Source: Gemmatimonadota bacterium
GTDB lineage: Bacteria; Latescibacterota; UBA2968; UBA8231
Assembly (NCBI GenBank): GCA_009841115.1
Contig: VXML01000107.1
Location: forward strand, 248,001-312,000
Direction: 5' to 3'
Length of the DNA stretch: 64,000 nucleotides
Under the pieces are notes generated by a model. The model was not told the DNA's origin, did no database searches, and saw nothing but the letters and a program-made list of their open reading frames with translations. Positions within the stretch are counted from its first letter, which is position 1. Every line of letters starts with the position of its first letter. This document shows positions 10,908 through 29,752 of this stretch, in pieces. The position numbers were made by a program, and so were the translations under genes.

Positions 10908-13793
10908 GTGAGACAGACCGATTGCGTCGTTCGTTTACTTTTTCTTCTAGTAACCTATTCTGCCGCCCTAGCCCAGCCGGCCGACTGGCGCTATTATGGC
11001 GGCGATGCGGGCAGCACCAAGTACTCGCCGCTCGTTCAGATTGACCGCGACAACTTCGCCGACCTGCGCATCATCTGGCGCTGGCGGCCCCCCGAAGCGG
11101 AAATTCTCGGAGAACACGATGTCGATAGAAACTACTATCGCAGTACGCCGATAGTAGTCAATGGCGTACTCTACGTCAGCTCGCCCTTTGGGATTGTAGC
11201 CGCGCTCGACGCGGCCACTGGCGAGGAGTTGTGGAAATTCGATCCCGAATCTTGGCGCGACCAAGAGTGGTTCCCCAGCACCCATCGTGGCGTGGCCTAT
11301 TGGGAGGAGGACGGGGCCAAGCGCGTGCTCTTCGGCACGACCGACGGCTATTTCTACTCGCTCGATGCCGAGACCGGCCGACCCGACCCGGCCTTCGGTG
11401 ATAGCGGGCGCGTCGATCTGACCCAAGGCATGCGCCGAGAGGTGCAGCGTGGCGAGTATGTTTCGGTCTCGCCACCGATGGTCTATGGCAGCTTGGCCAT
11501 CGTCGGCTCGTCCGTCCCCGACATTCGCGGTCGGCCCGTGCCTCGGCCCATGCCGCCGGGCGATGTGCGCGCCTTCGATGTGCGCACAGGCGAGCAAAAG
11601 TGGATCTTTGAAACGATTCCTCAACAGGGTTCCTTCGGCAATGAGACTTGGGGCGCAGAGTCGTGGAGGGACTTTGGGGGTGCCAATGTATGGTCGATGA
11701 TGAGCCTCGACCCCGCGTTGGGCTATGTCTATCTGCCGGTTAGCACGCCGAGCAATGACTTTTACGGCGGCGAGCGCCCCGGCGACAACCTCTTCGGCGA
11801 CAGCATCGTCTGCCTCGACGCCCGGACCGGTGCGCGGGTCTGGCACTTCCAGATTGCCCATCACGGAGTTTGGGACTACGATCCGCCCGCTGCGCCGATC
11901 CTCGTCGATATCGAGGTTGACGGCAAGCCGATCAAAGCCGTAGTCCAACTAACTAAACAGGCCTTCTGTTTTGTCTTCGACCGGATCACGGGCGCGCCCG
12001 TGTGGCCGATCATCGAGATGCCGGTGCCCGCCTCGACCATTGTCGGCGAAGCGGTCTCTGAAACCCAGCCGATCCCCGTTTGGCCTCGGCCCTACGACCG
12101 CCAAGGCTTAAGTGTAGAAGACCTGATTGACTTCACGCCCGAGCTACGGCAAATGGCGATGGAGGCGATTGAAGGGCACAGGTACGGCTCCTTGTATGCG
12201 CCGCCTGCGGAAAAGGGAACGGTTTTCGTGCCGGGTCTTCTAGGTGGCTCAGATTGGTCGGGCGGTGCCGTGAATCCGGCGACGGGCGTGCTCTACGTGC
12301 CCTCCAAGACCATGCCTTATCTAGTAACGCTGCGACCGACCGACGATGACGAGGCTTCTTCGGCCTATGCTGGCGTCTTCAACCACAACTTTACCGCGGC
12401 GAAGAACCTGCCGCTGCTCAAGCCGCCCTATGGTCGCCTCACTGCCATTGACCTCAACACGGGTCGGCATCTGTGGATGCGGCCGATGGGGCGCGGCCCG
12501 GTTGACCATCCCCTGCTGCGCGACCTCGAAATCAAAGAAGATCTGGGCTGGCCCTCGCGGACCTTTCCGTTGCTGACCCCGACGCTGCTGCTGACTGCGA
12601 CCGAAGATCCACGCGATGGCCGTTTCGGCCCGGCGGCTGGTCAAGGATACTTCGTCGATCGCGAGGCGTATTTGCGGGCCTTTGACCCAGCGACGGGCGA
12701 ATTGGTAGGCCAAGTCGAATTGCCGGGCAATGCGTATGCCAGCCCGGCTGTTTATCAGGTGGCTGGCCGTCAATACGTGGTCTTGTCGCTGGGCGACTCC
12801 TACCGGCCGAGCGAGCTAGTGGCTTTGGCTATTCCGCGCCAGGGCGAGGCCATCCCCGAGCAGGGCAAGAGCCGCAAAGACGCCGACCACAAGACGTTCT
12901 ACGAGGCCATGACGGCACTCGACGCGGGCGATAGCGAGCAGTTGAGCAGACTCCTCAAAAAGCACGCAGAGCTGGCAAGCGCACGCGGCTTTTTGGACGA
13001 GTGGTACGAGTTCCCAAACTTGCGCGGCGCTACGCTCTTGCATCTGACGGCCGGTGCACCGCTACGCGCGGCCTTGCCCGATAATGCCGTGAGCTTAGCC
13101 GAAATTCTACTCGACGCGGGAGCAGATCCCAAAGCAACGACGCTCGATTCGACGACTACGGCAGAGCTTGCGGCTACCGCTATTCAGCTCGAGTGGGCCG
13201 GGATCAAGAGCGACCTGCTCGCACTGCTCTACGAGAAGGGAGCTGACCCAAACCGCAACAATGGCAAGCTGCTGCACGACCTGCTAATCAGCCGCGAAAA
13301 AGAGCTAGCCGAGACGCTCCTCAGCGCCGGAGCCGAGGTCGATTTGCGCTTTGCCGCTGGACTTAATCGCACGGACCTGATGGCTGGCTTTTTCAAAGAC
13401 GGTGTACCGACGCCGGAGGCCAATCGCCTCTATCGCGCCAACCCCGATACCGTCCTCAGCGGCCAGCAGGTCGTCGATGAGGCGCTGCATTACGCAGTGT
13501 ATAGCGGCGGTCGGGAGGCCATTGACTTTCTGCTAGAACGGGGTGCGAATATAGACGCTTTAGTCGGCTTTTTCTGGGAGTGGGACTGGGGCAGCACGGC
13601 CCTGCACAAGGCCGTGGATACCGAAGATGTCGAGTTGATTCGCTATTTGCTAGAAAAGGGCGCATCCACGACAATTGGAGATGCGCGCTGGGGCGAGACA
13701 GCCTACGACTGGGCGGGCTACTACGAAAACGACGCTATGCGCAAGGCCATCGGCGCACATGATGCGGCGGCCAAGGAAACGAAAAAACAATAG
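10908..13793 (+). CDS. exported PQQ-type beta-propeller dehydrogenase fused to ankyrin repeats (copy 1)
   Basis: A 961-residue protein. A signal peptide (LLFLLVTYSAALAQ) leads into an eight-bladed quinoprotein propeller opening with DWRYYGGDAGSTKYSPL, typical of membrane glucose dehydrogenase-like quinoproteins. The active-site blade HHGVWDYDPPAAP at about 316-328 carries the Asp expected to act as base. From about residue 657 the protein switches to ankyrin repeats (e.g. AEILLDAGADPKA, LIRYLLEKGAS), about 300 residues. No CxxCH heme motif is present, so electrons must go to another carrier. Start GTG 10908 with GAGGAG upstream. It is followed after 10 bases by a paralogue. Confidence 0.88.
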   Translation: MRQTDCVVRLLFLLVTYSAALAQPADWRYYGGDAGSTKYSPLVQIDRDNFADLRIIWRWRPPEAEILGEHDVDRNYYRSTPIVVNGVLYVSSPFGIVAALDAATGEELWKFDPESWRDQEWFPSTHRGVAYWEEDGAKRVLFGTTDGYFYSLDAETGRPDPAFGDSGRVDLTQGMRREVQRGEYVSVSPPMVYGSLAIVGSSVPDIRGRPVPRPMPPGDVRAFDVRTGEQKWIFETIPQQGSFGNETWGAESWRDFGGANVWSMMSLDPALGYVYLPVSTPSNDFYGGERPGDNLFGDSIVCLDARTGARVWHFQIAHHGVWDYDPPAAPILVDIEVDGKPIKAVVQLTKQAFCFVFDRITGAPVWPIIEMPVPASTIVGEAVSETQPIPVWPRPYDRQGLSVEDLIDFTPELRQMAMEAIEGHRYGSLYAPPAEKGTVFVPGLLGGSDWSGGAVNPATGVLYVPSKTMPYLVTLRPTDDDEASSAYAGVFNHNFTAAKNLPLLKPPYGRLTAIDLNTGRHLWMRPMGRGPVDHPLLRDLEIKEDLGWPSRTFPLLTPTLLLTATEDPRDGRFGPAAGQGYFVDREAYLRAFDPATGELVGQVELPGNAYASPAVYQVAGRQYVVLSLGDSYRPSELVALAIPRQGEAIPEQGKSRKDADHKTFYEAMTALDAGDSEQLSRLLKKHAELASARGFLDEWYEFPNLRGATLLHLTAGAPLRAALPDNAVSLAEILLDAGADPKATTLDSTTTAELAATAIQLEWAGIKSDLLALLYEKGADPNRNNGKLLHDLLISREKELAETLLSAGAEVDLRFAAGLNRTDLMAGFFKDGVPTPEANRLYRANPDTVLSGQQVVDEALHYAVYSGGREAIDFLLERGANIDALVGFFWEWDWGSTALHKAVDTEDVELIRYLLEKGASTTIGDARWGETAYDWAGYYENDAMRKAIGAHDAAAKETKKQ

Positions 13794-13803
13794 AGGAGAA
13801 AGC

Positions 13804-16725
13804 GTGAACAAACGAGCCTGTGGGACCTTGCTGGCGTTATTGTCACTTTTGCTCGCGACGGCGGCATTTGCCGACGAGGTCGATTGGCCGTATTACGGGG
13901 CCGACCAGGGCGGCACCCGCTATACTCCGGCGGACCAGATCAATCGCGATAACTTCGATCAATTGCGCGTGATCTGGCGCTACCGTCCTCCCGACCAGCA
14001 GATCTACGAGACGGCTGGCCCCAACCCGGTGGGGCGCAATCTCTACTTCGACAACAATCGCGGCACGCCACTCGCCGTCAACGGCGTGCTCTACTATGCC
14101 TCGCCCTTCAACATCCTCGTAGCTCTCGACGGCCAAAGCGGCGAGGAACTGTGGACCTTCGACCCAGAGGCTTGGCGGATGAATTTCCGCTTCTTGGGCA
14201 ATGTGCGCGGGGTTAGCTATTGGACCGATGGCGAGGTCGAGCGGGTATTTATGGCGACTTCGACTTCCCATTTGTATTCCATCGACGCCAAGACCGGCCT
14301 GCCCGACCCAGATTTTGGCGAGGACGGGCGCGTCGATTTGGGGGCCTCGCTGCGCCGGCCGCTGGACGAAAGGCAGCGCTGGAACTACGGAATCACGTCC
14401 CCGCCCGTGGTCTGCCGCGACGTGGTCGCCGTTGGCTCGGCTATGGGCGACTGGCGCTTCCAGCCGCCGCCCGAGTACACTCCTCCCGGCGACGTGCAGG
14501 CCTTCGACGTGCGTACCGGCGAGAAGGTCTGGGAATTCCACACGATTCCGTTAGAGGGCGAATACGGCAACGAGACGTGGGAAAACGATGCATGGAAAAA
14601 GTACGGCGCGGCCAATGTCTGGGCGACGATGACCGCCGACGAGGAGTTGGGCTATCTCTACCTGCCGGTGAGCACGGCCAGCCACGACTACTACGGTGGC
14701 GAGCGCCCGGGCGACAACCTCTTCAGCGAGTCGGTGGTCTGTCTGAAGGCTGAGACCGGCGAACGAGTGTGGCACTATCAACTCGTCCATCACGGCCTGT
14801 GGGACTACGACCCACCGGCTGTTCCCCTACTGTTGGATGTGGTCGTCGATGGCCAACCGCGCAAGGTTGTTGCCCAGCTTACGAAACAGGCTTTTTGCTT
14901 TGTCTTTGACCGCGTGACCGGCGAGCCGATCTGGCCGATTGAGGAAAAGCCGGTGCCACAGTCGCAAGTCGAAAAGACTTCGCCGACGCAGCCTTTTCCG
15001 ACCAAGCCGGCTCCTTTCGAGCGCCAAGGCATCAGCGAGGACGACCTGATCGACTTTACGCCTGAGTTGCGCGAGGAAGCCAAGGCCATTCTCGCCGAAT
15101 ACGACTACGGTCCGCTCTACACGCCGCCGACGGAGAAGGGCACCTTGTCGGTTCCCGGCCAATGGGGTGGTGCTGACTGGGCTGGAGGTGCGGCGGATCC
15201 GCGCACGGGTGTGCTGTACGTGCCGTCGCACATGGCCATTACCACCGTGCAGTTGCATCCGGTAGAGGACCCGGAGGCGCACTCGGCGTTTTCTGCTAGC
15301 AATAACCTGCACGTCGTCGGTCCTCGGGGTCTGCCGCTGGTCAAGCCGCCGTACGGCAGTATCACGGCGATTGATCTGAATAGCGGCGAACATCTATGGC
15401 GGACGACGGTGGGCAAGGGGCCGGTCGATCACCCAGCGCTCAAGGGGCTCGACTTGCCGGATATGGGCTGGGACAACCGCACCTTTGTCCTAGCCACGCC
15501 CAATCTCCTGTTGGCTACTTCGCAGGATCCGCACGGCCTAGCCGAGGCTGGCGAGGATTACTTCGTTGATCGCGATGCGTACCTGCAGGCGTACGATTTG
15601 GCGTCGGGTCGGGAGATCGGTCGCGTTGAGCTACCTAGCAACGCCTATGGCGCGCCGATGAGCTATACGGCCGGCGGTCGCCAGTACGTAGTCGTGCCGC
15701 TGGGCAACTATCTAGGAGAGTCAGGTCGTCCGCCCGAGTTGGTCGCCTTGGCCATTCCGCACGAGGCCGAGCAACTGCCACCCCAAGGCCGCGACCGCGG
15801 CGACGCCGACCATAAAGCCTTTTATGAGGCTGTGAAAGCTATCGATGTCGGAGACAGCGAGACGCTACAGAAACTGCTCGCTGAGTACCCCAAGCTAGCG
15901 ACGGCGCGCGGCTATTTCGACGAGTATTACGAATATCCTTACTTTCGCGGGGCGACGCTCTTGCACCACGTAACCGGCGAGCCGCAACGAGCGCCGCTGC
16001 CCGAAAACGCGGTTGAACTAGCCGCTGTCCTGCTTTCAGCAGGTGCCGACCCCAACGCCGCCACGTACGACACGGTCGCCGTGCTAGACTTGGTGGTAAG
16101 CAGTGCCCAGCTCGGTTGGGCTGAGAGCAAGGACGAGATGGTTCAGCTCTTGGCCGGCGAGGGCGCGGACTTAGGGCGCAACCGAGGTCAGGTGCTGTGG
16201 GATGTGCTTATTGAGGAAGACTTGGAGCTGGCTCGCATGTTGATTGCGGCGGGCGCGCCCGTGGATTTGCGCTTTGCCGCTGGGGTCAATCGCGTCGATC
16301 TGATGGCGGAATTCTTCGACTCGGAGGGCAAGTTGAAAGAGGGAACTGGCCACCTCTATCACCCGAATCCAGACACCGTGCTCACTGCCGAGCAGATTGT
16401 GGTGGAAGCGCTTAACTTTGCGGCCTATAGCGGCGCATTGGAAGCGGCGGAGTTTTTGCTGGATCGCGGTGCGGATATCGACGGCTTTGCCGGTGAGTTT
16501 CACCGTTTCGACCACGGCAGTACGCCTCTGCACAAAACCGTCATGACCAACCAGCTAGAGATGGCCCAGTTGCTTTTGGCGCGAGGCGCGAACTCGCTGG
16601 TGGGAGACCGGGCCTATGACACCACGCCTTATGGGTGGACTTACTATTTAGAGACCTCTAAGGCCCTCGACGAGGTGCTCAAAGAGCACCATGAGGCCGC
16701 CGTAGAGAAGGCGGGTGCTCGTTAG
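13804..16725 (+). CDS. exported PQQ-type beta-propeller dehydrogenase fused to ankyrin repeats (copy 2)
   Basis: A 973-residue paralogue of the preceding gene. The start is GTG 13804 (AGAGGAGA upstream), giving a signal peptide (LLALLSLLLATAAFADE); the frame extends upstream to 13675 but that would overlap the previous gene. The propeller opens with DWPYYGADQGGTRYTP, and HHGLWDYDPPAVP at about residue 329 marks the active-site blade. The ankyrin part begins near residue 670 and includes AAVLLSAGADPNA and MAQLLLARGAN. It is much closer to copy 3 than to copy 1, so the second duplication is the more recent. No heme c motif. Confidence 0.88.
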   Translation: MNKRACGTLLALLSLLLATAAFADEVDWPYYGADQGGTRYTPADQINRDNFDQLRVIWRYRPPDQQIYETAGPNPVGRNLYFDNNRGTPLAVNGVLYYASPFNILVALDGQSGEELWTFDPEAWRMNFRFLGNVRGVSYWTDGEVERVFMATSTSHLYSIDAKTGLPDPDFGEDGRVDLGASLRRPLDERQRWNYGITSPPVVCRDVVAVGSAMGDWRFQPPPEYTPPGDVQAFDVRTGEKVWEFHTIPLEGEYGNETWENDAWKKYGAANVWATMTADEELGYLYLPVSTASHDYYGGERPGDNLFSESVVCLKAETGERVWHYQLVHHGLWDYDPPAVPLLLDVVVDGQPRKVVAQLTKQAFCFVFDRVTGEPIWPIEEKPVPQSQVEKTSPTQPFPTKPAPFERQGISEDDLIDFTPELREEAKAILAEYDYGPLYTPPTEKGTLSVPGQWGGADWAGGAADPRTGVLYVPSHMAITTVQLHPVEDPEAHSAFSASNNLHVVGPRGLPLVKPPYGSITAIDLNSGEHLWRTTVGKGPVDHPALKGLDLPDMGWDNRTFVLATPNLLLATSQDPHGLAEAGEDYFVDRDAYLQAYDLASGREIGRVELPSNAYGAPMSYTAGGRQYVVVPLGNYLGESGRPPELVALAIPHEAEQLPPQGRDRGDADHKAFYEAVKAIDVGDSETLQKLLAEYPKLATARGYFDEYYEYPYFRGATLLHHVTGEPQRAPLPENAVELAAVLLSAGADPNAATYDTVAVLDLVVSSAQLGWAESKDEMVQLLAGEGADLGRNRGQVLWDVLIEEDLELARMLIAAGAPVDLRFAAGVNRVDLMAEFFDSEGKLKEGTGHLYHPNPDTVLTAEQIVVEALNFAAYSGALEAAEFLLDRGADIDGFAGEFHRFDHGSTPLHKTVMTNQLEMAQLLLARGANSLVGDRAYDTTPYGWTYYLETSKALDEVLKEHHEAAVEKAGAR

Positions 16726-16744
16726 AATACCGATTGGCAGACCA

Positions 16745-16820
16745 GATCAATCGCTACATGCGCGGGAATGAATCGCGGCGACAGGGTGTCTAATTAGCGT
16801 AGTGTTCCGCAAATTTTAGG
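16745..16820. repeat. dispersed intergenic repeat, copy 2 of 2
   Basis: This is the second copy of the 5003-5080 repeat, same orientation, here between the second and third quinoprotein-ankyrin genes. The conserved core runs from GCGCGGGAATG through GTGTCTAATTAGC to CCGCAAA. In this copy one C is missing after TTAGC and two bases near the left end. Confidence 0.7.
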
Positions 16821-16875
16821 GTGGGCTACTGCGATAATGACGCCATGTGCGAGGTCCTCAAAAAGGAGAACTCCA

Positions 16876-19800
16876 ATGAATAAACGCGCCTGCTGGACCT
16901 TAGCGATCGCATTCTCGCTGTCGCTCGCGTATGCAGCGTTTGCCGACGAGGTCGATTGGCCGTACTACGGAGCCGATCAGGGCGGCACCCGCTACACCCC
17001 CGCCGACCAGATCAATCGCGACAATTTCGATCAGTTGCGCGTGATCTGGCGCTACCGACCCCGCGACCAGCAGATCTACGAGACGGCGAGAGCTAACCGA
17101 AGCCGGGACCGGGATCGGGGTCGGGGTGATCGGCGGCGCGGGGGTTTTCGCCTTGGCTTCAGCAACAATCGCGGCACGCCACTGGCCGTCAATGGCGTGC
17201 TCTACTACGGCTCGCCATACAACATCCTCTCGGCTGTTGACGGCCAAAGCGGCGAGGAACTCTGGGCGTTCGATCCAGAGTCTTGGAAAGCTCCTTCCAC
17301 GTTCTTGGGCAATTCGCGCGGGGTGAGTTATTGGACCGATGGCGAGGTCGAGCGGGTGTTTCTGGCGACTTCGACCGCCTATCTGTACTCCATCGACGCC
17401 AAGACCGGCATCCCGGACCCAAATTTTGGCGAGGGGGGTCGCGTCGATTTGGGAGCCTTGCTGCGCCGGCCGCTGAGTGAAGAGGAGCGCAGGGGCTACG
17501 GAGTTACGGCTCCGCCCGTGATCTGTCGCAACGTGGTTGCCGTTGGCTCGGCGATCATGGATGCGCGCTTTAGGCCGCCGCCCGAATACATGCCCCCGGG
17601 CGATGTGCAGGCCTTTGACGCGCGCACCGGCGAGAAAGTGTGGGAATTCCACACGATTCCGTTAGAGGGCGAGTACGGCAACGAAACGTGGGAAAACGAT
17701 GCGTGGAAGACCTTCGGCGCGGCCAATGTCTGGGCGACGATGACGGCCGACGAGGAGTTGGGCAATTTCTACCTGCCGGTGAGCACGGCCAGCCACGACT
17801 ACTACGGCGGCGAGCGCCCCGGCGACAACCTGTTCAGCGAGTCGGTGGTGTGTCTAAAGGCCGAAACCGGCGAGCGAGTGTGGCACTACCAACTCGTCCA
17901 TCACGGCTTGTGGGACTACGACCCGGCGGCTGTTCCCCTGCTGTTGGATGTGGTCGTCGATGGCCAACCGCGCAAGATCGTCGCCCAGCTTACCAAACAG
18001 GCCTTTTGCTTTGTCTTTGACCGCGTAACCGGCGAGCCGATCTGGCCGATTGAGGAAAAGCCGGTGCCGCAGTCGCAGGTAGCGTGGGAAAAAACCTCGC
18101 CGACGCAGCCGTTTCCGACCAAGCCGGCTCCCTTTGAGCGCCAGGGCCTCAGCGAGGACGACCTGATTGACTTCACGCCTGAGCTGCGCGAGGAAGCCAA
18201 GGCCATTCTCGCCGAGTACGACTACGGTCCGCTCTACACGCCGCCGACCGAGAAGGGCGCTTTGTTGGCTCCCGGCCAAGCCGGCGGAGCCGACTGGGCT
18301 GGGGGCGCGGCGGACCCGCGCACGGGCGTGCTCTACGTGCCATCGCACATGGCCATTACCAATGTGGAGCTGCGGCCGGTACGCGACCTAGATGCCTATT
18401 CGGCGTTCTCTGCCCGCGCCGGTCGGCACATCCGCGGTCCTCGGGGTCTGCCGCTGGTCAAGCCGCCGTACGGCAGCATCACGGCGATTGACCTCAACAG
18501 CGGTGAGCATCTGTGGCGGACTGCGGTGGGCAAGGGGCCGGTTGATCACCCGGCGCTCAAGGGCCTCGACCTGCCAGACATGGGCTGGGACAACCGCACC
18601 TTCGTCTTGGCCACGCCCAATCTCCTGTTGGCTACTTCCGAGGACCCGCACGGCCTAGCCGACGCTGGCAGGGACTACTTCGTCGATCGCGACGCGTACC
18701 TGCGGGCGTACGATTTGGCGTCGGGCGAGGAGATCGGCCGCGTCGAGATGCCCAGCAATGCCTACGGTGCGCCGATGAGCTATGTGGCCGGTGGCCGCCA
18801 ATACGTGGTCGTGCCGCTGGGCAACTCTCAAGGCAGGTCCGAGCGCCCGCCCGAATTGATCGCCTTGGCCATTCCACACAAAGGAGAGGAACTGCCGCCC
18901 CAGGGACGCGACCGGAGCGACGCCGACCACAAAGCCTTTTACAAAGCCGTAGAAGCCATCGATGCCGGGGACAGTGAGACGCTACAAAAGTTGCTCGCTG
19001 AGGATCCCGAGCTAGCGACGGCGCGCGGTTATTTCGACGAGTACTACGAATACCCTTACTTTCGCGGGGCCACGCTCTTGCACCATCTAGCCGGCGAGCC
19101 GCAACGAGTGCCGTTGCCCGAAAACGCGGTTGAACTAGCCTCGGCTCTGATCTCAGCAGGTGCCGATCCCAACGCCGCTACGTACGACTCGATCAGCGTG
19201 CTGGATCTGTTCATAGAAAGCGATCCGCTCGAATGGGTCGAGAGCAAGCCAGCAATGATCCAACTCCTAGTGACCAACGGCGTGGATGTGAACCGCAACC
19301 GGGGCCAAATTTTATGGAACGCGCTTAGAGAGAGGGATATAGAGTTGGCGAGCATGTTGGTCGCCGAGGGAGCGGACGTGGATTTGCGCTTTGCCGCTGG
19401 GGTCAACCGCGTTGACTTGATGGACCAGTTCTTCAACTCCGAAGGCCAGCTAAAAGAGGGGGGCGGCCATCTGTACCATCCCGACCCGGATACCGTGCTT
19501 ACCGCCGAGCAGATTATGGTAGAAGCACTCAATTTTGCGGCCTATAGTGGTGCGTTGGAGGCGGCGGAATACTTGCTGGATCGCGGTGTGGATGTCAACG
19601 GGATTGCCAGTGGGTTTCACCGGTACGATCGAGGTAGTGCGCCCTTGCACAAAACCGTCATGGCCGATCAGCTAGAGATGGCCCGCCTGCTCTTGGCACG
19701 GGGCGCGGATCCATTAGTGAGGGCGCGGCGCTTTCGCATCACGCCTTATGAACTGTCCAACTACTTGGATACCTCCGAGGCGCTCGACGAGCTACTCAGA

Positions 19801-19893
19801 GAGCACTCTGAGGCCGCCGCAGGGCAGGCGGACGCAGACTCCAGCGCCGCTCCTCCACGGAGGCGTCGGGGGAACCGCGAGGGATCGAGATAA
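16876..19893 (+). CDS. exported PQQ-type beta-propeller dehydrogenase fused to ankyrin repeats (copy 3)
   Basis: A 1005-residue paralogue, very similar to copy 2 through most of its length. ATG 16876 with AAGGAGA upstream gives a signal peptide (AIAFSLSLAYAAFADE). The active-site blade reads HHGLWDYDPAAVP at about residue 343, with Ala where the other two copies have Pro. Ankyrin repeats begin near residue 686. Between the first two blades (about residues 74-95) there is an Arg/Gly/Asp-rich insertion (SRDRDRGRGDRRRGG) absent from copies 1 and 2. The C-terminus has an added basic tail (PPRRRRGNREGSR). Confidence 0.88.
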   Translation: MNKRACWTLAIAFSLSLAYAAFADEVDWPYYGADQGGTRYTPADQINRDNFDQLRVIWRYRPRDQQIYETARANRSRDRDRGRGDRRRGGFRLGFSNNRGTPLAVNGVLYYGSPYNILSAVDGQSGEELWAFDPESWKAPSTFLGNSRGVSYWTDGEVERVFLATSTAYLYSIDAKTGIPDPNFGEGGRVDLGALLRRPLSEEERRGYGVTAPPVICRNVVAVGSAIMDARFRPPPEYMPPGDVQAFDARTGEKVWEFHTIPLEGEYGNETWENDAWKTFGAANVWATMTADEELGNFYLPVSTASHDYYGGERPGDNLFSESVVCLKAETGERVWHYQLVHHGLWDYDPAAVPLLLDVVVDGQPRKIVAQLTKQAFCFVFDRVTGEPIWPIEEKPVPQSQVAWEKTSPTQPFPTKPAPFERQGLSEDDLIDFTPELREEAKAILAEYDYGPLYTPPTEKGALLAPGQAGGADWAGGAADPRTGVLYVPSHMAITNVELRPVRDLDAYSAFSARAGRHIRGPRGLPLVKPPYGSITAIDLNSGEHLWRTAVGKGPVDHPALKGLDLPDMGWDNRTFVLATPNLLLATSEDPHGLADAGRDYFVDRDAYLRAYDLASGEEIGRVEMPSNAYGAPMSYVAGGRQYVVVPLGNSQGRSERPPELIALAIPHKGEELPPQGRDRSDADHKAFYKAVEAIDAGDSETLQKLLAEDPELATARGYFDEYYEYPYFRGATLLHHLAGEPQRVPLPENAVELASALISAGADPNAATYDSISVLDLFIESDPLEWVESKPAMIQLLVTNGVDVNRNRGQILWNALRERDIELASMLVAEGADVDLRFAAGVNRVDLMDQFFNSEGQLKEGGGHLYHPDPDTVLTAEQIMVEALNFAAYSGALEAAEYLLDRGVDVNGIASGFHRYDRGSAPLHKTVMADQLEMARLLLARGADPLVRARRFRITPYELSNYLDTSEALDELLREHSEAAAGQADADSSAAPPRRRRGNREGSR

Positions 19894-25417: not shown

Positions 25418-26491
25418 CTACAGGCCTCCAACCTCAAGCGAGAGGCGTCGCGTTCCCTCCCACTCCTTTAGCTCCACTTGCGCACCGTCGTAGTCAATCC
25501 GTTCAACGCCGGCAAAGTCGCTTGGCACTTCGATGAGAAAGGCGACATATGATCGACTAATAGTCTCGCCTGCATCGATGTAGTCGAAGAGAGTGCGACC
25601 GAAGATGCGTCCCTTTTCCACGAGAAAACCGAAGGGCGTTCCCGGTCCCGTAGTACCGAATTCGAGGCCCCGGGCGAAGGGACGGCCATTGCGGATGTGA
25701 CGCCACGCTCTGAACCAAGGGTACTCAGCGGTTTTCCAAAGGTAGCCTAAGAGCAGGCCGTGCCCCGGCGCAGTGGCGGTGGTCCAGCCGTATTCATCGT
25801 CGATCACATAGACGACCACGGCCGGTTCTTGGTCGTCCACGAGTCGGCGCATATCGACCGGCATCCCCGCGTCGAGGGCTTGAGGCCAGTACACGGCTGG
25901 CTCCTCCGGGTTTGGCATGGGACTGCTGAGCATGAATCCCTTGCGTGCATTGGCGTCCACCAGTGTGCTCTCGTCGAGAAAAGGCGGCCCGATTGTGGGA
26001 TGCTGCACTATGTTGTATATGCGCCCTAGCGCATTGGTGTTAGTTACCTCTTCGCGAACACTGAAGTGTGTCCCCTCTAGCCGTACGACGCGCCGTACGT
26101 GCATCCCCGCCAATGGCAGGTGGGTGCTCATTTCCGCCACGACGGCATCGCCTTGTTGTTCCGGCTCACCGAGGAGTTCCCACATCCGGCTCGCCGCCTC
26201 GCCGTGAAAAGGCATGCCATTGGCCTGCTCTGCGGCCGACGGACGGCCCACGCGGTCCAGACATAGAAAGTGCCCGCGATTGCGCGGCTCCAGCTCGCCG
26301 CCTTCGCCCTCCCACTTGAGCGGATTGATGCCGTTGGACAGCAGGTGAAAATCGACGATACCGCCGCCTGCTAGATCGATGGACAAATGTGCCAGTTCGC
26401 CGCGAAGAGTAATCACAGGCCGCTCAGCGCCTCCTGCTTCCCCCGTCCAGAGGCCAGGGACTATCAGCGCTACGGCTATCCATACTTTCAT
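25418..26491 (-). CDS. secreted galactose mutarotase-fold-like protein, unknown substrate
   Basis: A 357-residue exported protein. AAGGAGG lies 5 bases before the ATG, and residues 1-21 form a signal peptide. The body is rich in beta strands with aromatic loops and resembles the galactose mutarotase/carbohydrate-binding fold (phrases such as LKWEGEGGELEPRNRGHFL, then FSVREEVTNTN and GTPFGFLVEKG). I recall similar annotation in carbohydrate-use loci of uncultivated bacteria, but catalytic residues are not identifiable by eye. Its place between a transporter-like protein and a solute-binding protein supports a role in processing an imported carbohydrate. Confidence 0.55.
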   Translation of the reverse strand: MKVWIAVALIVPGLWTGEAGGAERPVITLRGELAHLSIDLAGGGIVDFHLLSNGINPLKWEGEGGELEPRNRGHFLCLDRVGRPSAAEQANGMPFHGEAASRMWELLGEPEQQGDAVVAEMSTHLPLAGMHVRRVVRLEGTHFSVREEVTNTNALGRIYNIVQHPTIGPPFLDESTLVDANARKGFMLSSPMPNPEEPAVYWPQALDAGMPVDMRRLVDDQEPAVVVYVIDDEYGWTTATAPGHGLLLGYLWKTAEYPWFRAWRHIRNGRPFARGLEFGTTGPGTPFGFLVEKGRIFGRTLFDYIDAGETISRSYVAFLIEVPSDFAGVERIDYDGAQVELKEWEGTRRLSLEVGGL

Positions 26492-26585: not shown

Positions 26586-28568
26586 TCAGGGTACTCCCAC
26601 GCTCACCCAATTGCCCACCATGCCCGTCAAGTAGTCTATAGCCATCCAGCTCGCGCCACAGCTAATCTGTCCGGCGATCAGGCCGATGAAGAAGGGCCGT
26701 ATGGTGCGATATAGACGCACCCCTCCATAACGCACGATAAACAACTTAAACAGCCAGCCGATCATAATACTGAACCAACCTACGCTGATCGGCAACGATG
26801 TGGCGATGGGTAGGCCTAGATAGTGAAGTGGCCAGTTGATAAACCGGTGCCGGGCGTACATCAGTCCAGCCATGACTGTGCCGCCCAACCCTGCAAAGGC
26901 AATTCGCGGCAGGGTGATGTCGCTGCCGAGGGGGTTCTGCAGCTTGTCTCCCACGAACCCGAAGATGGTTTGGGGCAGTCCTAAGAAAGCCCAGCGCTGC
27001 AGATTGATCCCCCCGTACGTATAGGCGAGCCACACGGTCATCAGGCCCGAACAGATCGTGCCGATCAGCGCCGCCAGCACAATGGCACCTAGGAGGGGAC
27101 GCGGTCGGCGAACTCCAATGCTGTCCATCATTTTCAGCGCGTGCATTACCGATGCCATCAGTGGGGAACGGATCTCGGAACTCCAGGTGTAGGTGAAGCC
27201 TAGGCTAGTTAGTCCCGTAGGCCCCACGAGCCCTGTCCCAAAGGTGTAAACTGTGAACACGGCCGGGACGAGTTGAGTCCGGGAAAAGCCGACGCCGCCT
27301 TCGGCGATGATGCGAGTTAGGGCAAAAAACGCGGCAAAGGCAGTGCCCACGAAGAAGGGCGTAAGCCACAGCGGCATCCCGCTAGCGTTGAGCCACAGAC
27401 CCATGCCGACCAACCCAACCAATAGCGTAATCACCGCTGCCCGGTAGGACATGATTTCGTCCCTGTCATCTACGTGTGGGGCGGTGCCGAAGGCTTTGCC
27501 GAAGACCGAGGCTAGATGCCGGCGACTGGTCCACAGGACGAACAAAACCAGTGCGATGGTGGCCCCCATTGCCTCGTGGCCGACCGCGACCGTTCCCCCC
27601 CCGCCGACAAAGACCTCTTCGCGCCCTGGGATGTCGTAGCCAATAATATTCAACAGGCCCGACTGTAGCTTCATCAGCACGTGGAAGAACCAGAGGCTAA
27701 ATCCTATTTCTAGGTTCACTAGGTAGGTAAACCCGATAACGGAAAAGCTCAGGAGAATGCGGAACGGGGTGGTATCCCTGAATAGCTCGAAGTAGGTGTT
27801 CGTCTCGATTCTAGGGATGTAGTTGAAATAGGCGTGCAGCCCATGCGTGCTCAGTACGATCCAAGGCAGCGCGATTCCCACCCACAGCAGCGGTTGCCGG
27901 AAAAGGGAGCCTAGGATGTGCCCTGTTTGGGGAGGCCGGAGCATCTCCAACGGCACTTGGGTCAAGGGGAAGACGAGTCGCTCGTGCTCCACCCATTGAC
28001 GCCGGACGATTACCATGCTGCTGATCATCACGGCAAAGAAGGAGGCGATAAAGATCCCCCAGGCCGCGAAGGGCACTAGCCATGCCCCCCACGGGACCGA
28101 GACATGGGAGGGGGCTCCTTCGTAGAAATACTTTATTGCGAGCGGGTCGTGGGGTCCTATCCAATCCGGGATCAAGGGCAAGATCAGCTCGGCCCATTCG
28201 TTCTCCGGCGTGGCGTAATAAGAAGCTCCTGGCAGAACGGGGATCATATTCGCCATCAGCGTCTTCGTCGGGATCGTGGAAGCCACGATCATCATCGTGT
28301 AGATGACGACGAGTTCGCCCGTTGTAAACACCCAGGGAGGATGGATTTTTCGCAGTGCGGTGTTGACTACAAAGGTGAGCAGGAAAAACAGGAACACGGC
28401 ACCGGCCGTGATGGAGTCGGCGTTGAGCGGTGCCGTGTGATGGACGAACTGGACATAGAGCGGGCCAGTTCCAAGGAACGCCGTCAGCAGGCAACCGAGG
28501 AGAAAGGCGCGTACGGTAAACACGCGCCCTCCACCAGCCGGCAAATCCGGCTGCCCCTGCGTAGTCAT
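26586..28568 (-). CDS. polytopic membrane protein, DUF6785-like (OPT-like)
   Basis: A 660-residue integral membrane protein with about a dozen hydrophobic segments. The opening FTVRAFLLGCLLTAFLGT and the loop after the second helix (TGELVVIYTMMIVASTIPT) are the pattern of the DUF6785/DUF6784 group, related in look to oligopeptide transporters. I use ATG 28568, 4 bases after the stop of the enolase gene; the longer frame starts with TTG at 28613 and would overlap that gene by 41 bases. It is probably the uptake or export route for the cluster's substrate. Transport has not been shown for the family. Confidence 0.75.
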   Translation of the reverse strand: MTTQGQPDLPAGGGRVFTVRAFLLGCLLTAFLGTGPLYVQFVHHTAPLNADSITAGAVFLFFLLTFVVNTALRKIHPPWVFTTGELVVIYTMMIVASTIPTKTLMANMIPVLPGASYYATPENEWAELILPLIPDWIGPHDPLAIKYFYEGAPSHVSVPWGAWLVPFAAWGIFIASFFAVMISSMVIVRRQWVEHERLVFPLTQVPLEMLRPPQTGHILGSLFRQPLLWVGIALPWIVLSTHGLHAYFNYIPRIETNTYFELFRDTTPFRILLSFSVIGFTYLVNLEIGFSLWFFHVLMKLQSGLLNIIGYDIPGREEVFVGGGGTVAVGHEAMGATIALVLFVLWTSRRHLASVFGKAFGTAPHVDDRDEIMSYRAAVITLLVGLVGMGLWLNASGMPLWLTPFFVGTAFAAFFALTRIIAEGGVGFSRTQLVPAVFTVYTFGTGLVGPTGLTSLGFTYTWSSEIRSPLMASVMHALKMMDSIGVRRPRPLLGAIVLAALIGTICSGLMTVWLAYTYGGINLQRWAFLGLPQTIFGFVGDKLQNPLGSDITLPRIAFAGLGGTVMAGLMYARHRFINWPLHYLGLPIATSLPISVGWFSIMIGWLFKLFIVRYGGVRLYRTIRPFFIGLIAGQISCGASWMAIDYLTGMVGNWVSVGVP

Positions 28569-28572
28569 AGCA

Positions 28573-29742
28573 TCAGCGCGCGTCGGGGTAGTGGTCGGGG
28601 GGGTGCTTCGCAAGTTCGGATTCGATCAAGTCCGACCCTAGACCGGGCCGTTCCGGTAGAATCAGGTGTCCGTCCTGCACTTCAAAGGGATGACTCATTA
28701 GGTCGTCCCGCCACGGCGCGTCGTCCACATCGAATTCCAAGATGTAGAAATTGGGTACGGTGGCGCATACATTGGCCGACACCAACGTCGTCAGTGGGCT
28801 GTGGCAGTTGTGGGGGGCAAATAGCACGTCATAAGCGTGAGCTAGGTCGGCGAGCCGCCGGCCCATCGCGATCCCGTTCCAGGCTAGGTCGGGCATGACG
28901 ATGTCTTGAGCGTGGAGTTCGAGAAAAGGTCGGAAGTCGGCGGTGCCAAAGAGGCTCTCGCCGGTGCAGATCGTCGTGGTCGTAGATTCGCGAATGGTCC
29001 GCAGGGCCGAGGCGTCGAGGGTCTCCGTCTCAAGCCACATCAGGTCATACGGCTCCAAGGCCCTAGCGAGCCGCGCTGCGCCGCCCAACTTGAAGTGGAA
29101 TCCCACATCCAGTGCGATCCCCACATCCGGTCCGAGGGTCTCCCGGAAGGTGCCAACTATTCGCTCTGCGCGACGCAGGACAGCAGGGGATGCATCGCCG
29201 ACGCCACTTCCGGTACCCAAAGGATCGTCCTCCAAGGGCATAAGGTTTGTCTTGATCGCCGTGAAGCCGCGCTCCAGCACCTCTCTAGCCAATTCCTCCA
29301 AATCGGCAACCGTCCGCACTGGCTGCAATCCCAACTTCTGCGTCCACGGTCCGGTTCGGGTCGTACCGCAGTGAGACCAGTACAGCCGGAGCCGGTCCCG
29401 CATACGGCCGCCGAGCAGTTGCCACACGGGCGCGTTTAGAACCTTGCCGCGGATGTCCCACAGGGCCGAGTCAATGCCGGACATCGCCTTGTAGGCAATG
29501 CCTCCGGTGTGGCGAACCGAGAAGGCGGATAGTTCCCACCAGATCGCCTCGCTCGCCATGGGATCCTTGCCGATAATCCGCTCGGCGTACCGTTCTACCG
29601 TCGCCGCCACGGGTCCGGGAGAGCCCCAATCGGTGCAGTCCCCCCACCCCACGAGGCCCGGGTCGCTGGTTTCGATCTTCACGAAGGTCCAGGGACGGAA
29701 GCCGCCATCTACTATGTACGTCTTGACTCTGGTGATCCGCAT
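28573..29742 (-). CDS. enolase-superfamily dehydratase (mandelate racemase/muconate lactonizing type)
   Basis: A 389-residue acid-sugar dehydratase-like enzyme. Metal ligands are D212 (ALDVGFHF), E238 (MWLETE) and E262 (TGES); H311 (APHNCHSP) is the candidate general acid. The first catalytic motif reads K164-T-N166 rather than KxK, so one-base chemistry (dehydration) is more likely than racemisation. I prefer ATG 29742, which has GGAG 8 bases upstream; the frame's earlier GTG at 29751 would overlap that site. The neighbours suggest the substrate is a sugar acid imported by this cluster. Confidence 0.85.
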   Translation of the reverse strand: MRITRVKTYIVDGGFRPWTFVKIETSDPGLVGWGDCTDWGSPGPVAATVERYAERIIGKDPMASEAIWWELSAFSVRHTGGIAYKAMSGIDSALWDIRGKVLNAPVWQLLGGRMRDRLRLYWSHCGTTRTGPWTQKLGLQPVRTVADLEELAREVLERGFTAIKTNLMPLEDDPLGTGSGVGDASPAVLRRAERIVGTFRETLGPDVGIALDVGFHFKLGGAARLARALEPYDLMWLETETLDASALRTIRESTTTTICTGESLFGTADFRPFLELHAQDIVMPDLAWNGIAMGRRLADLAHAYDVLFAPHNCHSPLTTLVSANVCATVPNFYILEFDVDDAPWRDDLMSHPFEVQDGHLILPERPGLGSDLIESELAKHPPDHYPDAR

Positions 29743-29752
29743 CGCATACACT

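Follow-up and report, generated by a model that had tools for sequence, protein, structure and literature searches.

The window analysed here is a stretch of 64,000 nucleotides (contig VXML01000107.1, positions 248,001 to 312,000) and contains, at 10908-19893, three complete stop-free open reading frames (ORFs) placed head to tail on the plus strand. Their products, P1, P2 and P3, each consist of a predicted signal peptide, a quinoprotein propeller of Pfam family PF01011 and about 300 residues of ankyrin repeats (Table 1). The original prediction, made from the sequence alone, of three full-length exported propeller-ankyrin paralogues with WDYD and without CxxCH was confirmed by the ORFs, Pfam, hydropathy and a structural model of P2. 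We propose that P1-P3 would be periplasmic dehydrogenases dependent on pyrroloquinoline quinone (PQQ), of the eight-bladed PF01011 kind and devoid of a membrane anchor or heme domain, in a cell that appears to lack a known PQQ pathway and would load them with PQQ brought in by a PqqU-type TonB-dependent receptor. The C-terminal ankyrin solenoid would be an old, selected part of the enzyme whose most likely role is docking another protein; the strongest candidate is a membrane protein that combines five CxxCH motifs with tetratricopeptide repeats (TPRs) and would take the electrons. Taken as a whole, we regard this reading as evenly poised between holding and failing.

The start codons of P1-P3 were chosen by the preceding GGAG-type ribosome-binding sites (the ORF listing had earlier starts, hence longer frames, for P2 and P3), and 10 bases lie between the P1 stop and the P2 start. 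All three proteins have an N-terminal hydrophobic segment (maximal 15-residue hydropathy 2.0-2.5), WDYD occurs once in each, and a motif scan of the three found no CxxCH heme motif (0/3). The PF01011 profile was matched along its whole length, with E-values of 6e-191 (P1), 2e-184 (P2) and 2e-179 (P3), or 599-636 bits against a cut-off of 26.7. The best-scoring curated NCBIfam family was TIGR03074 (membrane glucose/quinate/shikimate dehydrogenase), at 379-398 bits under its cut-off of 832.65 and with the match beginning at profile position 153; TIGR03075 (methanol/ethanol dehydrogenase) scored 211-233 bits, under 480.05. The AlphaFold2 model of P2, built from a 42-row alignment, had a predicted local distance difference test (pLDDT) score of 90.3 and a predicted template modelling (pTM) score of 0.89. 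Residues 23-657 of the model matched PQQ alcohol/methanol dehydrogenases with Z-scores of 31.9-35.9, and BamB and designed propellers ranked lower (Z 25-30). By this model, the P2 propeller is predicted to have the eight-bladed quinoprotein fold.

Alignment with E. coli Gcd (L009) showed that the positions of R266, D354, W404, D466, D468 and K493 are retained in P1-P3, that the T424 position is Ser, and that H262 and N607 are not retained. We take the retained Gcd positions to comprise the catalytic Asp and residues that bind PQQ or metal; a literature search found no paper naming the PQQ/metal-binding residues of Gcd. The PQQ/metal-site positions are thus kept in all three copies, and the loss from every copy that had been considered beforehand was not found. 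Use of a lanthanide was not concluded from WDYD, because this second Asp is shared with E. coli Gcd. Among 28 fusion rows, five (L143, L144, L146, L147 and L148) have Asn for the catalytic Asp (WNYD). WNYD is seen on two distinct branches, among propellers that have an ankyrin tail and among propellers that lack one.

The last third of P1-P3 matched PF12796 (36.6-52.7 bits, cut-off 27.3) and PF00023 (44-50 bits, cut-off 21.1). When the ankyrin part of P2 was modelled separately, the pLDDT was 87.9 and the structural matches were ankyrin solenoids (Z up to 16.4). The match was tight (1.9-3 Å) over about 120 residues of the C-terminal half and loose (mostly 5-7 Å) over 220-250 residues, so that the modelled solenoid seems bent or interrupted mid-way. 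The ankyrin family is recognised by a signature (GATLLHxxAGNP-like and AAGxxRxD-like), and was also found without a propeller in six genomes of other families in the phylum, once behind a sigma-70 region 4 (L121:949-2919, G036).

In a tree of 77 propellers, which included up to 45 propeller-only ORFs and the three from the window's own genome, all 28 fusions fell inside one strongly supported group of 32, and the four propeller-only rows of that group nest among them; two changes, one fusion and one loss, suffice. A careful tree of 37 of the 77 rows, kept after removal of long-branch rows and near-copies, agreed. Strict monophyly of the fusions was rejected by the approximately unbiased test (p 0.0009 with 77 rows, 0.006 with 37), and tblastn found no ankyrin trace in the four nested propeller-only loci. 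The simplest story told by these trees would be one fusion event and, later, one loss of the tail. P2 and P3 (together with C66, the fourth fusion of the genome) form a young group; P1 is an old paralogue that branches early, and a recent tandem triplication was rejected because it stands apart from P2, P3 and C66.

Over 13 ortholog pairs, the ratio of nonsynonymous to synonymous substitution rates (dN/dS) was 0.059-0.157 in the propeller (from residues 288-647 only for pairs with C66) and 0.072-0.242 in the ankyrin part. Purifying selection acts on both domains. The ankyrin value was the higher one in 12 pairs and tied in one. Ankyrin and propeller distances were correlated among 11 representative fusions (Mantel r 0.89 with propeller residues 330-650 only; none of 5000 permutations reached this value). 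Between P2 and P3 of the window, identity is 95-100% at residues 241-440 and drops to 55-57% in parts of the ankyrin domain, and the divergence between P2 and P3 was greatest in the ankyrin part in five of six genomes. The idea that duplication widened the substrate range was thus left unsupported, with P1 split early from P2 and P3 and the latter two differing most outside the propeller. Identity is also low (68%) in a propeller loop around residues 480-520, so that an effect on substrate may still exist. The exception among the six genomes was G058 (L138), where the divergence is more even. In this otherwise more divergent pair, one stretch of 40 codons is fully identical; the sequences suggest gene conversion between P2 and P3 of G058.

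Docking of a partner is the role that we favour for the tail, tentatively and with slightly less than even confidence. The solenoid could instead be a rigid extension without any partner, which stabilises the propeller or its dimer and was kept since the enzyme had adapted to it. The pTM of the P2 model, which spans both domains, suggests that the tail is packed in a fixed position on the propeller, and both the higher dN/dS of the ankyrin part and the concentration of P2/P3 differences there are as expected for a part without a strict partner. However, ankyrin dN/dS values of 0.07-0.24 still denote strong constraint, and the same family has independent uses as a module, since related genomes carry it by itself and joined to a sigma-70 region. 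We consider a purely structural role unlikely.

PQQ synthesis, for which a search had been suggested along with the original prediction, was not supported. Neither pqqC nor pqqE was over cut-off in G000-G005, that is, in the window's own genome (94.55% complete) and five relatives (0/6). Both queries were detected in the likely PQQ makers G006-G008, the control genomes (3/9 genomes for each gene). Across the phylum, pqqC was over cut-off in none of 64 genomes. Among 33 genomes with propeller-only relatives it was over cut-off in two, with a pqqC in two pieces below cut-off in G080 and a weak match in G099. From this count of 2/33, PQQ synthesis seems to be missing in most genomes that have this propeller group, and scavenged PQQ, or a function without PQQ, may be the norm for the group.

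A PqqU-type importer was found instead. The E. coli PqqU query matched in eight of 11 genomes tested, including seven of eight with a fusion, and the homologue of the window's own genome lies on contig C31; no match at 1e-20 was obtained in G064, G074 and G091. Q84, Q121, K274, R304 and R365 of PqqU are identical in all eight homologues, Y99 is Phe and Q310 is Asn. A second TonB receptor of G054 (L166) does not have the PqqU residue set. According to passages of PMC12124388, PqqU occurs in 22 phyla, with 14 Latescibacterota among the bearers and no PQQ synthesis genes there. As Latescibacterota already appear as scavengers in those passages, PQQ scavenging in the phylum is not new, and what is added here is its link to propeller-ankyrin fusions.

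P1-P3 are probably real PQQ dehydrogenases fed by imported PQQ. A propeller that makes no use of PQQ and acts as a scaffold or binding protein would also fit the counts of pqqC (0/64 in the phylum and 2/33 among genomes with propeller-only relatives) and the exchange of the catalytic Asp for Asn in several relatives, and P1-P3 do score 222-227 bits with the NCBIfam family of acido-empty-quinoproteins (TIGR04528, group A). That score is far under the cut-off of 650 bits, though, the active-site set is intact in P1-P3, and there are PqqU homologues that keep key PQQ-contact residues, in one case adjoining an intact fusion gene, which makes such an "empty" quinoprotein quite unlikely.

Of the 64 genomes of the phylum, 20 matched the ankyrin alignment at 1e-25 and 13 carried propeller-ankyrin fusions (G000, G051, G052, G054-G058, G064, G066, G067, G068 and G071); all 13 belong to the 25 genomes of the window's family f1. 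Thirty of 41 ankyrin matches were examined as loci and some others later (for instance contig C44 of G067, as L144), with contigs C61 and C4 of G067 left out; relatives by contig search were the best 80 of 584, and fusions beyond those can be missed. Besides the array, the window's own genome carries a fourth fusion, C66 (81% to P2), and its three relatives without the ankyrin part lie on C55, C1 and C54. G049, of the same genus, has the ankyrin part only as a 94-residue frame. Records of this genus are named either Latescibacterota (L024, L025) or Gemmatimonadota (L022, L023). One fusion bearer of the family, G064 (locus L029), has an isolate label pointing to a freshwater lake.

The array is syntenic: genes for a sulfatase, a PhyH protein and an epimerase-like protein precede P1-P2-P3, and a TauD-like gene and then a 324-aa gene follow. 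All three copies are present in G058 (L138) and in L022, where P1 is truncated by the contig end, and P1 and P2 are visible in L023 before its contig ends. No intact P1 was found in G054, G055 and G057. A 113-residue frame that includes the ankyrin end of P1 remains in G055, and in G057 the place of P1 is taken by a 1390-aa P-domain/CARDB protein (L139:13589-17758); this protein had been considered as a TonB receptor, which was rejected as Pfam identifies a P-domain protein. An assembly artefact was likewise rejected, in agreement with the original prediction, since independent genomes, the single-contig G057 and G058 among them, also contain the fusion. Outside the phylum, the ankyrin profile matched 0/297 genomes of the phylum of G091, in a scan without a positive control, and 4/298 of the phylum of G097, none of them propeller-fused; these scans, which sampled larger groups and, in the rows shown, scored at most seven candidates for each genome, are weak evidence.

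It is very unlikely that the ankyrin tail targets a eukaryotic host such as a sponge with the propeller as carrier, as proposed for other sponge-symbiont ankyrin proteins: passages of PMC8163846 report an enrichment of ankyrin proteins in sponge-associated genomes and that E. coli escapes phagocytosis with the help of repeat proteins from sponge-associated microbes, both of which count in favour of host targeting, but the fusion is spread across the family (G064 included), the ankyrin part tracks propeller history, the active site is intact, and a signal peptide by itself does not place a protein outside the cell.

Only two pointers to a partner of the tail were found: a heme-protein gene beside the fusion in two related genomes of the group labelled g6, and a triple fusion with an SGL domain. 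In G067, pqqU lies next to a fusion gene in divergent orientation (L145), the two reading frames overlapping only in extended starts, and in G066 pqqU adjoins a degenerate fusion without propeller (L169). This degenerate gene (L169:6939-7769) has a propeller start joined straight to ankyrin repeats. In both genomes the gene after the fusion encodes a membrane protein of about 980 aa with five CxxCH and C-terminal TPRs; an FG-GAP/UnbV gene then follows in G067, as does a similar gene, judged by its start, in G066. On the other side of pqqU, G067 has acetate-kinase-family, GFO/IDH and ManD-like dehydratase genes. In the window's own genome, C69 groups the dehydratase, kinase, five-CxxCH and FG-GAP genes and carries neither pqqU nor a fusion, and the five-CxxCH protein there shares 64% identity with its g6 homologue. 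That the five-heme protein is the docking partner is a guess from one genomic pointer, and somewhat unlikely to be right.

A second fusion of G066 is a single propeller-ankyrin-SGL ORF (SMP-30/gluconolactonase; L119, or L143:3713-7468; SGL E-value 7e-45, in a domain scan that covered G066 only), and the sister ORF of G067 (L144) has the same length. The SGL fusion hints at a lactone product, but this G066 protein has WNYD. Given the SGL fusion in one relative and the sugar-acid genes near pqqU in another, the substrate of P1-P3 would probably be a sugar or polyol. The fusion of L029 (G064) is flanked by TonB receptors on both sides, of which the downstream one does not have the PqqU residue set. 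In a bolder version of our proposal, which is rather unlikely, the ankyrin solenoid would replace the heme or membrane domain as adaptor to the electron acceptor; in this family, PqqU, the fusion and the five-heme TPR cytochrome of the membrane would act as a single cassette that oxidises sugars outside the cytoplasm by means of scavenged PQQ, and the paralogues would share a core and differ in the partner selected by their ankyrin part.

Several findings weigh against enzymes fed with scavenged PQQ and docked through their tails. The fusion-bearing G064 is among the genomes without a PqqU match, and in all eight PqqU homologues R536 is Glu, Y481 is Asn and N477 is Ser or Val (Ser in that on C31); according to passages of PMC12124388, R536 of PqqU is less well conserved. 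WNYD is present in both long SGL-type ORFs of g6 (L143, L144), in three further g6/g7 fusions and in the ankyrin-less copies on C55 (L152) and C1 (L153) of the window's own genome. The branch of four ankyrin-less rows indicates that the propeller can dispense with the tail. Finally, the own genome shows no linkage between its fusions, its pqqU on C31 and its five-heme gene on C69, and the linkage of the three therefore rests on one pair of related genomes, G066 and G067, which counts as one event because both belong to one genus.

Among known systems, the type II quinohemoprotein alcohol dehydrogenases (1kv9, 1yiq and 1kb0) also combine a soluble PQQ propeller with an extra C-terminal domain, and were among the best matches to the fusions by sequence and fold. 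Their C-terminal domain is a cytochrome c with CxxCH; P1-P3 differ in having ankyrin repeats at the C-terminus and no heme motif. With the acido-empty-quinoproteins the likeness is one of the propeller; the active site of P1-P3 is intact. The stand-alone or sigma-70-linked ankyrin proteins (L121, L122, L126 and L172-L175) share the ankyrin signature, and no propeller was found in them. E. coli Gcd, of the TIGR03074 family, has the same PQQ/metal-site residues, the HHxxWDxD motif and the Lys, and, according to passages of PMC12124388, is likewise a PQQ enzyme of a cell that gets PQQ via PqqU. Unlike Gcd, P1-P3 have no N-terminal membrane domain, do not keep H262 and N607, and have a C-terminal ankyrin domain. 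The PqqU-dependent scavenging described in the same passages shares with this system a PqqU homologue, the absence of PQQ synthesis and the quinoproteins; those passages make no mention of an ankyrin fusion or of a pqqU adjoining one. A quinoprotein-ankyrin fusion was not found in the titles or abstracts of the literature searched either. The propeller-ankyrin architecture is thus not described in the literature found, and each part is known separately.

Table 1. Positions of the propeller-ankyrin genes and their features in the window.
Feature	Position	Strand	Length and start, or basis
P1, propeller-ankyrin fusion, predicted exported	10908..13793	+	961 aa, GTG start
P1 predicted signal peptide, end approximate	10908..10973	+	hydropathy, sequence reading
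P1 PF01011 propeller, residues 27-624	10986..12779	+	Pfam
P1 WDYD, first Asp at the catalytic Asp position (E. coli Gcd D466)	11871..11882	+	alignment
P1 ankyrin domain, approximate	12870..13772	+	Pfam
P2, propeller-ankyrin fusion, predicted exported	13804..16725	+	973 aa, GTG start
P2 PF01011 propeller	13885..15690	+	Pfam, AlphaFold2 model, fold comparison
P2 WDYD	14800..14811	+	motif, alignment
P2 ankyrin domain, approximate	15802..16680	+	Pfam, separate domain model, fold comparison
P3, propeller-ankyrin fusion, predicted exported	16876..19893	+	1005 aa, ATG start
P3 PF01011 propeller	16957..18807	+	Pfam
Arg/Asp/Gly-rich insertion in P3 and its L022 orthologue, near the first propeller blade	17086..17160	+	alignment
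P3 WDYD	17911..17922	+	motif, alignment
P3 ankyrin domain, approximate	18919..19800	+	Pfam

Elsewhere in the window, an enolase-superfamily sugar-acid dehydratase-like gene lies on the minus strand at 28576-29751, and similar genes are found near fusions in G067 and L029. Between it and an SBP_bac_5 gene sit two further minus-strand genes, one with a DUF4432 match slightly under cut-off (25418-26491) and one for a DUF6785/DUF6784 protein (26586-28613).

What is known of how soluble quinoproteins reach an electron acceptor concerns mainly the types that bear a cytochrome or a membrane anchor, and the ankyrin tail offers a testable third way. It also places an ankyrin domain in a predicted exported enzyme, in a lineage whose ankyrin proteins are usually read as host-interaction factors. 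If the many quinoproteins of this uncultured lineage are tied to imported PQQ, its periplasmic metabolism would depend on PQQ-making neighbours.

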